Assembly: GCA_017881265.1 (NCBI GenBank)
Contig: JADGRA010000077.1
Location: forward strand, 1 to 64,000
Reading direction: 5' to 3'
From: Myxococcaceae bacterium
GTDB taxonomy: Bacteria; Myxococcota; Myxococcia; Myxococcales; Myxococcaceae
Length of the DNA stretch: 64,000 nt
Position numbers and translations under genes: made by a program. The notes under the pieces were generated by a model. That model ran no database searches and had not been told where the DNA came from. It saw nothing but the letters and a program-made list of their open reading frames with translations. Below are positions 19,102 through 51,463 of the stretch, one piece after another. The stretch's first letter is position 1, and each line of letters opens with the position of its first letter.

Positions 19102-19311
19102 TTCTTTCTTTCGAGGCCCATCGTGAAACTCAAGACCAATCGCCAAAGCCCAAGAGATTCATTCCTCGCAAGCAATTGCTTGCGCAGGTCCGGCCTCGGT
19201 CTGGGCGTCGTGACCTCACCTTCGGGAGGCAGTCGCTAGGCGTTCACGCCAACGCGCGCCCTTCACCGGAGGCCGGGTTCCCGACAAAGGAACCCGGCCT
19301 TCTTCGTTTTT
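19102..19311 (+). ncRNA. candidate short RNA between a strong promoter and an intrinsic terminator
   Basis: A unit of about 210 bases bounded by the promoter at 19067-19095 and a strong terminator at 19270-19311. It contains a perfect 18-bp palindrome, CGCAAGCAATTGCTTGCG at 19167-19184, which would form a hairpin or protein site. The only small frame (GTG 19131, ending near 19244) lacks a ribosome binding site and protein-like features. No known RNA family is recognised. It may be a small RNA or an attenuated leader for the tRNA-Pro-like and slipin genes downstream. Confidence 0.4.
19270..19311 (+). terminator. Rho-independent terminator
   Basis: A perfect 11-bp stem, GGCCGGGTTCC (19271-19281) with GGAACCCGGCC (19289-19299), loop CGACAAA, followed by TTCTTCGTTTTT. 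An extra A-T pair extends the stem. This is a textbook plus-strand intrinsic terminator although no protein gene precedes it. Confidence 0.85.
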
Positions 19312-47569: not shown

Positions 47570-48580
47570 ATGCGCCGCCTCCTTCTTGCCGCCTGCGTTT
47601 TGATGTCGGCAGTCGCCCTCGCACAGGCCGACGCCGGCAGCCCGGCCACGCTGGCCCTCCATGCGCTGGTGCTTCAGCCCGGCAGTCCAGGCCGCGTCGG
47701 GATGGACTACCTGGGCTACGAAGTGACCACCAACCAGGTGTGGGTTCCCGGTGGAAACACCGGCCGCGTCTTCGTCATCGACGCGACGACCGAAACCATC
47801 CGCACCGTCGAGGGCTTTCCCACCAAGGAGAAGGAAGGTCGGACGCTGGGGCCGACGTCGGTGACGTTCGGGCCGGGGCGCGCCTTCGTCGGTAACCGGG
47901 CCGACTCCTCGGTGTGCTCTGTGGACTTGCGCACGCTGCAGCGCGGCGAGTGCGTGGCGCTCCCGGAGGCGCCGGATGGCCTGGCCTACGTGGCCACCAC
48001 CGACGAGGTGTGGGCCACCACGCCGAGGTCGCGCTCGCTGGTCATTCTCTCCGCGGCCAAGCACGGCCTGCCCATCGCCGGGCACATCCAACTGCCGGGG
48101 GAGCCCGAGGGCTACGCGGTGGACCTGGCCGGGGGGCGCTTCTTCACCAATCTCGAGGACCGGAACGAGACGATGTCCCTCGACGTGCACACCCGGTCCC
48201 TCTCGGGCCACTGGCCCACCACCTGCAGTTCCGACGGGCCTCGCGGGTTGGCGCTGGACACCGCCCACGGCGTGCTGGTGGTGGCGTGCACCGACCGCCT
48301 CGTGTCCTTCACCCTCAGCCCCAAGCCTGAGCGGCGGGGCAGCGTGGAGACCGGCCTGGGCGTTGACAATATCGACTTTGCCGCCAAGACGGGCACTGTG
48401 TACGCGGCCGCCGGCAAGGCCGAGCGGCTGACGCGCGCCCAGCTTCTCCCCGACGGCTTGCTACACGCCACCGGGGAGGCGCACACCGCGCCCGGCGTCC
48501 GGGTGGTGGTCGTGACGCCAGCCGGAAAGGCCTTCGCTGCGGACTCCGCCGGCGGACAACTCTGGGTGGCGGGGCCCTAG
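47570..48580 (+). CDS. periplasmic YncE-like beta-propeller protein
   Basis: A 336-residue protein with a signal peptide (MRRLLLAACVLMSAVALAQ) and propeller repeats: YEVTTNQVWVPGGNTGRVFV, GPTSVTFGPGRAFVGNRADS, TTDEVWATTPRSRSLVILS, GYAVDLAGGRFFTNLEDRNE, GLALDTAHGVLVVACTDRLV. The pattern of one blade per about 42 residues matches YncE/cytochrome-D1-type propellers. There is no heme motif and no lipobox. The role is probably binding or scaffolding in the periplasm. It ends 50 bases before the palindromic operator of the desaturase operon. Confidence 0.75.
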   Translation: MRRLLLAACVLMSAVALAQADAGSPATLALHALVLQPGSPGRVGMDYLGYEVTTNQVWVPGGNTGRVFVIDATTETIRTVEGFPTKEKEGRTLGPTSVTFGPGRAFVGNRADSSVCSVDLRTLQRGECVALPEAPDGLAYVATTDEVWATTPRSRSLVILSAAKHGLPIAGHIQLPGEPEGYAVDLAGGRFFTNLEDRNETMSLDVHTRSLSGHWPTTCSSDGPRGLALDTAHGVLVVACTDRLVSFTLSPKPERRGSVETGLGVDNIDFAAKTGTVYAAAGKAERLTRAQLLPDGLLHATGEAHTAPGVRVVVVTPAGKAFAADSAGGQLWVAGP

Positions 48581-48629
48581 AGAGGGCCCCCGGGGAAGCC
48601 TGCGTCCGGCGTCCGCGGCGCCTGGACAG

Positions 48630-48660
48630 ATGTGTCACTTTGTGTCACAAAGTGACACAT
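48630..48660. promoter_or_regulatory. 31-bp perfect palindrome over the start of the RHH gene
   Basis: Two perfect 15-base arms, ATGTGTCACTTTGTG at 48630-48644 and CACAAAGTGACACAT at 48646-48660, around a central T. The right arm includes the A and T of the ATG start codon of the ribbon-helix-helix gene. Within the arms TGTCAC/GTGACA boxes recur, as expected for cooperative RHH dimers. It should block transcription when bound and could also hide the start codon in mRNA. Confidence 0.8.
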
Positions 48661-48955
48661 GCAAAAGTCAGGTCCCACCGCCCGCGCTCGCAAGGAGCGG
48701 GTCATCCACACCCGCGTCCCTGCGCCCCTCGAGGAGGAGCTGAAGCGCTTCGCCGAGGAATTGCGCATCCCGGTGTCCAACCTCATCCGCACCATCCTCG
48801 AGGACGCCCTTGCCGCCGCCGACCAGGCCGGCGAGCGTGTCGAGCGGGGGCTGCGCGACGGCGCGGCGCGGCTGGCGCATGGGCGGGACCATCTGCGGCG
48901 GACGCTGGTGGGCCGGCTTCCGGCCGGGGCCAGCCGAAGGGGCCGCCCGTCATGA
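48659..48955 (+). CDS. ribbon-helix-helix (CopG-like) regulator of the desaturase operon
   Basis: A 98-residue protein. Residues 15-55 form a ribbon-helix-helix: VIHTRVPAPLEEELKRFAEE is the DNA-contacting strand and helix A, and LRIPVSNLIRTILEDAL is helix B. The C-terminal half is basic and unstructured. The ATG lies inside the palindrome at 48630-48660, an in-frame TGA stands two codons upstream, and there is no Shine-Dalgarno sequence, so translation is probably leaderless or structure-controlled. The end overlaps the first desaturase gene (ATGA). It most likely represses its own operon. Confidence 0.85.
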   Translation: MQKSGPTARARKERVIHTRVPAPLEEELKRFAEELRIPVSNLIRTILEDALAAADQAGERVERGLRDGAARLAHGRDHLRRTLVGRLPAGASRRGRPS

Positions 48956-49725
48956 CGGCCATCCTCAGCCTGTTTGTGGCGCACTGGGTGATGTCCATCT
49001 TCGCCCAGACCTTCTTCCTGCACCGGTATGGCGCGCACCGGATGTTCACCATGAGCCCGGCCTGGGAGCGCTTCTTCTACCTGTTTGCCTTCGTCGCCCA
49101 GGGCCCTTCCTTCTTGGTTCCGCGCGCCTACGCCATCCTGCACCGCCAGCACCACACCTTCGCGGACACCGAGCAGGACCCGCACTCCCCCCGCTTCTTC
49201 TCCAACGTGGCCACCATGATGTGGCACACCAAGCACCAGTACGACGTCTACGCCTACCGGCGCGGGGAGCCGGAAGCGCGCTTCCTGGGCGGAACGCCGG
49301 AGTGGCCCTTCATCGACCGGCTGTCGCAGCGATGGACCACGCGCGTCGGGTTCGCCCTGCTGTTCGTCCTCTTCTACGTGCACTTCGCCCCGTCGGCCTT
49401 CTGGTTCCTCCTGTTGCCCGTGCACTGGACGATGGGGCCCATCCACGGCGCCATCGTCAACTGGTGCGGCCACAAGTACGGCTACCGCAACTTCGACACC
49501 GACGACGTCAGCCGGAATACCCTCCGGCTCGAGTTCGTCACCATGGGCGAGCTGTTCCAGAACAACCACCACCAGTTCCCGACCCGGGCCAACTTCGCCG
49601 TGCGCTGGTTCGAGCTCGACCCGGCCTACCAGCTGATGCGGCTTCTGGCCTGGGCCCGCATCATCCGCTTCGCCCCGGCCCAGGCCGGCCTGCCGGTCGT
49701 GCCGGAAACGGCGGTCGCCGGGTGA
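48952..49725 (+). CDS. acyl-CoA desaturase-like fatty acid desaturase
   Basis: A 257-residue integral membrane di-iron enzyme. The His boxes are HRYGAHRM (H-x4-H type), HRQHHTF (H-x-x-H-H) and, in the C-terminal part, GAIVNWCGHKYGYRN and LFQNNHHQFP (N-x-H-H). This order is that of stearoyl-CoA delta-9-like desaturases, which insert a double bond into saturated acyl chains using oxygen. It overlaps the RHH gene by four bases upstream and the lipase gene by one base downstream (TGATG). It probably adjusts membrane fluidity together with the second desaturase of the operon. Confidence 0.92.
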   Translation: MTAILSLFVAHWVMSIFAQTFFLHRYGAHRMFTMSPAWERFFYLFAFVAQGPSFLVPRAYAILHRQHHTFADTEQDPHSPRFFSNVATMMWHTKHQYDVYAYRRGEPEARFLGGTPEWPFIDRLSQRWTTRVGFALLFVLFYVHFAPSAFWFLLLPVHWTMGPIHGAIVNWCGHKYGYRNFDTDDVSRNTLRLEFVTMGELFQNNHHQFPTRANFAVRWFELDPAYQLMRLLAWARIIRFAPAQAGLPVVPETAVAG

Positions 49726-50477
49726 TGCGGGATTTCCCCGCCTCGGCCCGACCCGCCTCGGTGCTGGTGGCGCGGGAGGTGGCGGCCTTCGCCGCCTGGT
49801 CGCTGCTGCACCCCTTCGGCTGGAGGCCGCAGCGCAAGCGGACGCCGCGGCAGCAGCACCAGCGCACCGTCGTCTTCGTCCATGGCTGGGGCAGTAACCG
49901 CAGCGGCTTCCTCCCCCTGTCCGCCTACCTGCGGGCCCATGGCATCCGGCAGATGCTGGCCTTCGACTACCAATCCTCTGCTGGCATCGAGCGCGCCGGC
50001 CTGGCCCTCCGGGACTTCCTGCGGCACGCCGTGCGCGGGGGGCGAATCGACCTCGTCTGCCACAGCCTGGGTGGCGTCGTGGCCCGCGTCTACCTCGAGC
50101 AGCTGGCAGGGTCACGACGGGTCGACCGCTGCATCACCCTCGGGACGCCCCACCGCGGGACCTACAACGCCTACTGGCTGGGCACCCGTGTGGGCCGGGA
50201 GCTCCGTCCGGATTCCGCGCTCCTGGAACGGCTGGCCCGCACCGCGGGCCAGGCCCCCGGCGTCCGCTACACCTCCATTGTCGCCGGCTCGGACAACATC
50301 ATCATCCCGCGCGTCTTCGCGGCCGGAGACGACCTGGTCCTTGTGCCGGACGTCGGCCACCTGGGCATGCTGTTTTCGCCCGCGGTGGCGCGAGCGGTGC
50401 TGGACCGCCTGCTGCCGGCGCCAAATTTGCGTGGCGCCACTGCGACTTCAGTGGAAGCGCCCAACGCCAGTCGTTAA
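49725..50477 (+). CDS. alpha/beta-hydrolase lipase
   Basis: A 250-residue lipase of the class 2/PGAP1-like type. VVFVHGWGSNRSGFLPLSAY gives the oxyanion-hole HGWGS, and LVCHSLGGVVARVYLEQLAG gives the nucleophile elbow C-H-S-L-G-G. TLGTPHRGTYNAYWLGT follows, and likely acid and base residues lie in AGSDNIIIP and VPDVGHLGML. The N-terminus has a short amphipathic stretch but no clear signal peptide, so it may work at the inner face of the membrane. Its start overlaps the desaturase stop. A lipase between two desaturases suggests release or exchange of acyl chains (inference). Confidence 0.88.
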   Translation: MRDFPASARPASVLVAREVAAFAAWSLLHPFGWRPQRKRTPRQQHQRTVVFVHGWGSNRSGFLPLSAYLRAHGIRQMLAFDYQSSAGIERAGLALRDFLRHAVRGGRIDLVCHSLGGVVARVYLEQLAGSRRVDRCITLGTPHRGTYNAYWLGTRVGRELRPDSALLERLARTAGQAPGVRYTSIVAGSDNIIIPRVFAAGDDLVLVPDVGHLGMLFSPAVARAVLDRLLPAPNLRGATATSVEAPNASR

Positions 50478-50527
50478 CCCACGCCGGGCTAGACGGGGGA
50501 GCTGTCCTTTGAGAAGGTGCCTTTAAC

Positions 50528-51463
50528 GTGCTGCGCTACAGAGCCGACATCCGCACCCTTGGAATTCTCGCGACTTACGCCGCCCTCTTCCTCACGGGGT
50601 GGATGGTGGCGCCCACCGGGCCGCTGCTTTGGTCGTGGGTGGCAGTGCTGTCCTACAACTCCTGGCTGTGCGCGGTGGTGGCCCACAACACGGTCCACTG
50701 CCCGGTCTTCACCCAGCGCTGGATGAACCGTGCCTTCCAGGTGTGGGTCAGCCTGTCCTACGGCTTTCCCATCAGCGAGTACGTGCCCGGCCACAACCTT
50801 TCCCACCACCGCTTCACGGAGATGCGCGAGGACGTCATGCGCACCAGCAAGGTGCGCTTCCGGTGGAACTTCCTCAACCTGGTCTTCTTCTTCCCCGCGG
50901 TGACGCCGGCCATCCTCCGCGGCAACGCGCGCTTCAAGCAGCTGCGGGGCAGTAAAATCTCCGCCTGGCACAACCAGTTCCTTCTCGAAGCGGTGGTGGT
51001 GTGGGGCCTGAAGGTGGTCCTGCTCCTGGTCGACTGGCGCAAGGCGCTGGTGTTCATGGTGGTGCCGCACCTGGTTGCCAACTTCGGCATCGTCACCATC
51101 AACCTGCTCCAGCACGACGGCTGCGACCCGGAGCATCCCGTCAACCACTCGCGGACTTTCGTCAGCCCGCTGTTGAATTTCCTGACGGTGAACAACGGCT
51201 ACCACGGCATTCACCACAACGAGCCAGGGCTGCACTGGAGCCTGCTGCCGGCCGCGCATGCCGCGCGCATGCGGCCGGCCCTTCACCCCAACCTCGAAGA
51301 GCCGTCCATGGTCGGCTACATCTTCAAGGCCTACGTCTACCCAGGGAGGCGCCTGGCCTATGACGGCAGGCCGCTGGTGGTGAAGGACCTGGGTCCTGAC
51401 CGCGACTGGGTCCAGCCCGAGGACGCAGACTTCGCGCGAAGCCGCACCAAGGCCCCGGCTTAA
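50528..51463 (+). CDS. second fatty acid desaturase
   Basis: A 311-residue membrane desaturase distinct from the first. His boxes: VVAHNTVHCPVF (H-x3-H), GHNLSHHRFTE (H-x3-HH) and YHGIHHNEPG (H-x-x-HH), with four hydrophobic spans. The box spacing matches the FA_desaturase (PF00487) group acting on lipid-linked acyl chains or carotenoid-like substrates. It starts with GTG 50528, 50 bases after the lipase stop; AAGGTG lies upstream. As the last gene of the RHH operon it probably complements the delta-9-like enzyme at another position. Confidence 0.9.
   Translation: MLRYRADIRTLGILATYAALFLTGWMVAPTGPLLWSWVAVLSYNSWLCAVVAHNTVHCPVFTQRWMNRAFQVWVSLSYGFPISEYVPGHNLSHHRFTEMREDVMRTSKVRFRWNFLNLVFFFPAVTPAILRGNARFKQLRGSKISAWHNQFLLEAVVVWGLKVVLLLVDWRKALVFMVVPHLVANFGIVTINLLQHDGCDPEHPVNHSRTFVSPLLNFLTVNNGYHGIHHNEPGLHWSLLPAAHAARMRPALHPNLEEPSMVGYIFKAYVYPGRRLAYDGRPLVVKDLGPDRDWVQPEDADFARSRTKAPA

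Follow-up and report, generated by a model that had tools for sequence, protein, structure and literature searches.

A predicted ribbon-helix-helix regulator and three lipid enzymes in a compact, probably autoregulated operon behind a 31-bp palindrome in a Myxococcaceae bacterium

Four genes on the same strand of a 64-kb stretch of Myxococcaceae DNA (the window) encode, in order, a predicted ribbon-helix-helix (RHH) regulator, a membrane desaturase (desaturase 1), an alpha/beta-hydrolase and a second membrane desaturase (desaturase 2) (Table 1). The stop codon of the RHH gene (TGA, 48953-48955) overlaps the ATG of desaturase 1 at 48952 by 4 bases (ATGA), and that of desaturase 1 (TGA, 49723-49725) overlaps the ATG of the hydrolase at 49725 by 1 base (TGATG). 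The hydrolase stop codon (50475-50477) is followed by a 50-base gap before the GTG of desaturase 2 at 50528. The overlaps and the gap are as given in the original prediction, which however counted four genes behind the RHH gene; four is the total that includes it. Desaturase 2 might have a promoter of its own in the gap, a point against reading the genes as a single operon; none was found there. Upstream on the same strand, a gene at window positions 47570-48580 encodes a secreted-looking beta-propeller protein with a weak match to NHL repeats.

Table 1. Features of the locus and of related loci in other genomes
Feature	Position	Strand	Description
Possible -35 element TGGACA	48623..48628	+	5/6 match to TTGACA
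Perfect palindrome ATGTGTCACTTTGTGTCACAAAGTGACACAT	48630-48660	.	31 bp; 15-nt arms, 100% complementary; 1-nt spacer T; proposed operator
GTGWCAC boxes	48632-48638, 48642-48648, 48652-48658		Centre-to-centre spacing exactly 10 bp (one helical turn)
RHH (CopG/Arc-like) DNA-binding protein, predicted	48659..48955	+	98 aa; long second helix, basic tail
Membrane fatty acid desaturase 1, acyl-CoA desaturase-like	48952..49725	+	257 aa; HRYGAH, HRQHH, QNNHH; PF00487 60.4 bits (cut-off 29.7)
Alpha/beta-hydrolase (esterase/lipase)	49725..50477	+	250 aa; CHSLGG nucleophile motif, Asp (GSDN), His (GH); PF12697 42.2 bits (cut-off 26.3)
Membrane fatty acid desaturase-superfamily protein 2	50528..51463	+	GTG start; 311 aa; HNTVH, HNLSHH, HGIHH; PF00487 105.1 bits (cut-off 29.7)
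RHH relative with CxxC...CxxC	L123:1489-2052		Long helix, extra C-terminal region
RHH relative with CxxC...CxxC	L124:1204-1671		Long helix, extra C-terminal region
RHH relative with CxxC...CxxC	L125:1498-1971		Long helix, extra C-terminal region

The palindrome is the longest perfect inverted repeat in the window, the runner-up having arms of 12 bp. In Markov-shuffled windows (n = 10) the best arms reached only 9-11 nt, compared with 15 in the palindrome. Arms of at least 15 nt around a 1-nt spacer are expected about 3e-4 times per 64 kb and 0.02 times per 4.43-Mb genome, and the palindrome is far beyond chance. With a G+C content of 39%, compared with 67% for the window, it forms an AT-rich island. 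The RHH-gene ATG (48659-48661) shares its A and T with the final two bases of the palindrome. This start is well fixed, with an in-frame TGA two codons ahead of it and no alternative ATG, GTG or TTG before the RHH domain. The original prediction had described a 31-bp palindrome with 15-base arms around one base, ending inside the ATG of an RHH gene that lacks a Shine-Dalgarno sequence; the coordinates and the complementarity of the arms agree with this, and no GGAGG-like sequence was found ahead of the ATG. The second-longest perfect inverted repeat, at window positions 19270-19300, has GC-rich 12-bp arms around 7 bases (AGGCCGGGTTCC...) and a terminator-like look.

Support for the first gene product being an RHH protein is good but not formal. 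Its Pfam matches, to RHH_5 (20.1 bits, cut-off 26), RHH_3 (17.3 bits, cut-off 21.6) and CopG_antitoxin, are all below threshold, and the last is accompanied by a weak match to BrnA. The AF2 model contains helices at residues 22-35 and 39-85, after the region expected to form the strand, which forms only in the dimer. A Foldseek search with this model returned mostly RHH proteins (AmrZ, CopG, Arc, ParG, PutA), all with E > 1. In a sequence search against solved structures the low-complexity helix drew matches to designed TIM barrels and to nothing else, and these were discarded.

At E <= 0.001, a search of 60 relatives for the RHH protein found its own gene alone. The phylum search revealed only three clear relatives, all in distant families (Table 1). 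Most of the further matches in the phylum, with E of about 0.001-0.01, align mainly with the helical, low-complexity half of the protein, and were not believed. The order of G150 and the class of G143 contained no relatives beyond those known, and none were found in plasmids or in viral contigs. The CxxC...CxxC proteins make up a small, sparsely distributed family, whose C-terminal region matches no Pfam model above cut-off. In G150 (L124/L179), the gene directly downstream of the RHH relative encodes an alpha/beta-hydrolase 30% identical to that of the window. Four hydrolases of this kind are encoded in G150, and another locus of that genome has a closer match (41%), so that the RHH-adjacent enzyme is not the orthologue. 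The pairing in G150 is a weak hint found after the fact, rather than proof. In G188, the start of the RHH relative is overlapped by a gene for a short helical, phasin-like protein.

The three enzymes match their families well and have intact catalytic motifs. Both desaturases score above the PF00487 gathering threshold and carry three conserved histidine motifs, which they share, together with the membrane desaturase domain, with acyl-CoA desaturases (SCD1 fold, PDB 4ymk) and other PF00487 membrane desaturases. Desaturase 1 was related to 4ymk by phmmer, and its histidine motifs are conserved in an alignment of its relatives. Desaturase 2 has no relative in the PDB by sequence; its relatives within the same family are 58-65% identical and start at the same residue. 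The hydrolase is a predicted lipase or esterase on its profile score and Ser-Asp-His triad. Its nearest PDB match is a Bacillus-type lipase A/EstA (E 7e-13), and the HSLGG, GSDN and GH motifs are conserved in relatives with 59-66% identity.

Inspection of the palindrome revealed an internal arrangement absent from the original prediction. It consists of three GTGWCAC boxes (GTGTCAC, GTGTCAC and GTGACAC, separated by TTT and AAA), each of which forms a small inverted repeat of its own (GTG/CAC). Such an array has room for a stack of three dimers, or for a pair centred on the CAC-NNN-GTG dyads that separate neighbouring boxes. Operons led by RHH genes are expected to begin with short repeated boxes in register, and at the sequence level this one does. 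Allowing one mismatch, the three-box pattern has a single occurrence in the own genome and none in 194 other genomes of the phylum. Two-box matches at other places in the own genome, with no more than two mismatches, are at background, equal to a reversed control pattern. Because the site is unique and looser matches are at background, it looks private to the operon rather than the site of a global regulator.

A candidate promoter can be placed over the palindrome. From TGGACA, a 17-nt spacer leads to a possible -10 element inside the palindrome (CACAAA, 48646-48651, only 3/6), and a transcript from this promoter would begin on the A of the ATG or on a neighbouring base. No sigma-70-like promoter passed a formal scan. 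RNA carrying the palindrome is predicted to fold into a 14-bp hairpin of -21.6 kcal/mol, compared with a mean of -11.2 for shuffled sequences (z -4.2), in which the AU of the RHH start codon is paired. Since a Shine-Dalgarno sequence is lacking and this hairpin would bury the AUG, a message starting at or very near the ATG offers the simplest route to translation, and the RHH message is probably leaderless. The original prediction had placed the operator within the 5' end of the mRNA, which is possible but less likely, as the hairpin would pair the AU of the AUG. A search for papers yielded nothing usable, either on leaderless Myxococcus genes or on read-through translation blocked by hairpins.

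We consider it likely that the four genes form an operon repressed by its own first product, with the RHH protein binding the box array over the promoter of a leaderless message. Autoregulated RHH operons classically have their RHH gene immediately after a palindrome that runs into its start codon, and the same arrangement here, with a palindrome unique in the genome, argues for this reading. RHH dimers would line up side by side along one DNA face of the three boxes, with each box taking one dimer or with two dimers placed on the pseudo-dyads between boxes. Bound protein would cover the -10 region and the start point, which would lie within the palindrome, and so shut out RNA polymerase. When the RHH protein is titrated, degraded or relieved by some signal, the probably leaderless message would start at the ATG, and the four products would be made together through the overlapping stop and start codons. 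The enzymes would then change acyl-chain unsaturation and hydrolyse an acyl ester. Several results count against autoregulation: the sub-threshold Pfam scores and the Foldseek E-values, the failed promoter scan and the poor -10 element, the absence of a GTGWCAC box upstream of the three RHH relatives, and the absence, in the searched genomes, of a related operon in which the operator is kept beside the RHH gene.

The palindrome might serve a double purpose, as a three-box phased RHH operator on a leaderless promoter in DNA and as an AUG-hiding hairpin in read-through RNA. The hairpin would silence read-through messages, so that the lipid-enzyme operon would be expressed only from its own repressed promoter. 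We regard this extension as doubtful.

Helix-turn-helix dimers also bind long perfect palindromes, and the palindrome could instead be recognised by a regulator unlinked to the operon, such as one of the TetR, CRP or LysR type, with the RHH protein acting elsewhere. The sub-threshold RHH assignment and the lack of such boxes upstream of the RHH relatives would fit this. However, the genome has no second copy of this site, which reaches the RHH start, and the one-turn spacing of three boxes fits stacked RHH dimers better than a single helix-turn-helix dimer, which makes an unlinked regulator unlikely.

Alternatively, the palindrome could act as RNA, with transcripts entering from upstream folding the AUG-hiding hairpin as an insulator or translational switch, alone or on top of an operator. 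Apart from the strength of the hairpin and the pairing of the start codon, this is favoured by the upstream same-strand gene, which ends 49 bp ahead of the palindrome, with no intrinsic terminator found by a terminator scan between it and the operon. The periodicity of the boxes, however, is a feature of DNA-protein recognition and superfluous for a hairpin. The palindrome matches no Rfam family and has no relatives for a covariation test, and a role as RNA seems distinctly improbable.

It is highly improbable that the RHH gene is the antitoxin remnant of a toxin-antitoxin system beside unrelated lipid genes, as the weak CopG_antitoxin and BrnA matches might suggest, because the adjoining gene, with its 4-base overlap, encodes a 257-aa PF00487 desaturase and not a toxin, and because the RHH relative in G150 has directly behind it a hydrolase gene from the broad family of the window's enzyme. 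That the palindrome terminates or attenuates transcription of the upstream gene is scarcely credible: it is hairpin-forming and lies just downstream of an open reading frame, but a T run is absent on both strands and the terminator scan was negative.

The proposed autoregulated operon can be compared with described systems. The Arc, CopG and MetJ repressors are short beta-alpha-alpha DNA-binding proteins that bind repeated boxes as tandem dimers. The protein of the window is likewise a predicted short beta-alpha-alpha protein beside repeated boxes, but differs in its long second helix and basic tail and in the spacing and sequence of the boxes, and no known ligand domain was seen in it. The DesT/FabR-type repressors of bacterial desaturase genes belong to the TetR family. 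Control of desaturase genes by a repressor would be common to both cases, with a TetR-like protein there and an RHH protein here. In the literature searched, whose coverage is incomplete, we found no paper tying an RHH regulator to a desaturase operon.

By analogy, the closest described parallel for the operator appears to be relO of E. coli relBE, whose repeated [A/T]TGT[A/C]A hexads are bound on one helix face by RelB dimers that repress their own operon (PMC2812701). In both cases the operon opens with the gene for the RHH protein, and the palindromic operator, a proposed one in the window, is made up of short repeats that have a TGT[A/C]A-like core and face the same side of the DNA. Unlike relO, the operator of the window is predicted from sequence, with three GTGWCAC boxes at 10-bp spacing and an overlap with the start codon, and its cargo consists of lipid enzymes, with no toxin co-repressor.

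To investigate the occurrence of the operon, the neighbourhoods of its parts were examined in other genomes. The RHH, hydrolase and desaturase 2 genes were all absent from the fetched flanks of 41 loci with desaturase 1 relatives. Partner genes were likewise not found in flanks of about 1.5 kb around relatives of each enzyme in the phylum, or in flanks of several kilobases around selected relatives. Close hydrolase relatives (59-66%) occur without operon partners in other families of the same order. The desaturases and the hydrolase thus have good relatives in the phylum, standing apart at every locus examined. Conserved gene order, whose absence the original prediction had named as one ground for refuting it, was not seen, the four-gene cluster being found nowhere else among distant relatives. 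The genomes compared all come from outside the genus, and the operon may persist in closer kin. The self-regulated unit of the original prediction stands by inference from the RHH-palindrome layout and the unique site, without the conservation of gene order; its edit-and-replace of acyl chains was a speculation drawn from co-location.

The gene combination appears peculiar to this lineage, and its parts are ordinary. The locus can be described as a lineage-specific RHH operon of a known kind, probably autoregulated, with an unusual cargo of lipid enzymes and an unusually compact overlap of operator and start. If this is true, an RHH repressor would join the regulators of bacterial membrane desaturases, and the locus would offer a compact, testable case of operator, promoter and start codon in one 31-bp sequence. 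It would also point to joint control of desaturation and ester hydrolysis in this lineage, perhaps as part of the turnover of membrane or storage lipids. As the operon is not widespread in the searched genomes, its reach would be limited.

A search for copies of the operator in viral contigs returned ten exact matches, which were rejected as copies, being direct GTGTCAC arrays unlike the inverted arrangement in the window. These ten contigs (L181-L190, about eight of them distinct) contain three to five GTGTCAC direct repeats with 10-bp spacing, for example at L188:3006-3052 and L181:1358-1384, and further GTGWCAC boxes nearby. Several of the arrays lie close to replication-type genes (primase- or helicase-like), and the arrays could be iterons used in replication or sites for a regulator. 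They share box and spacing with the proposed operator of the window, in direct rather than inverted orientation.
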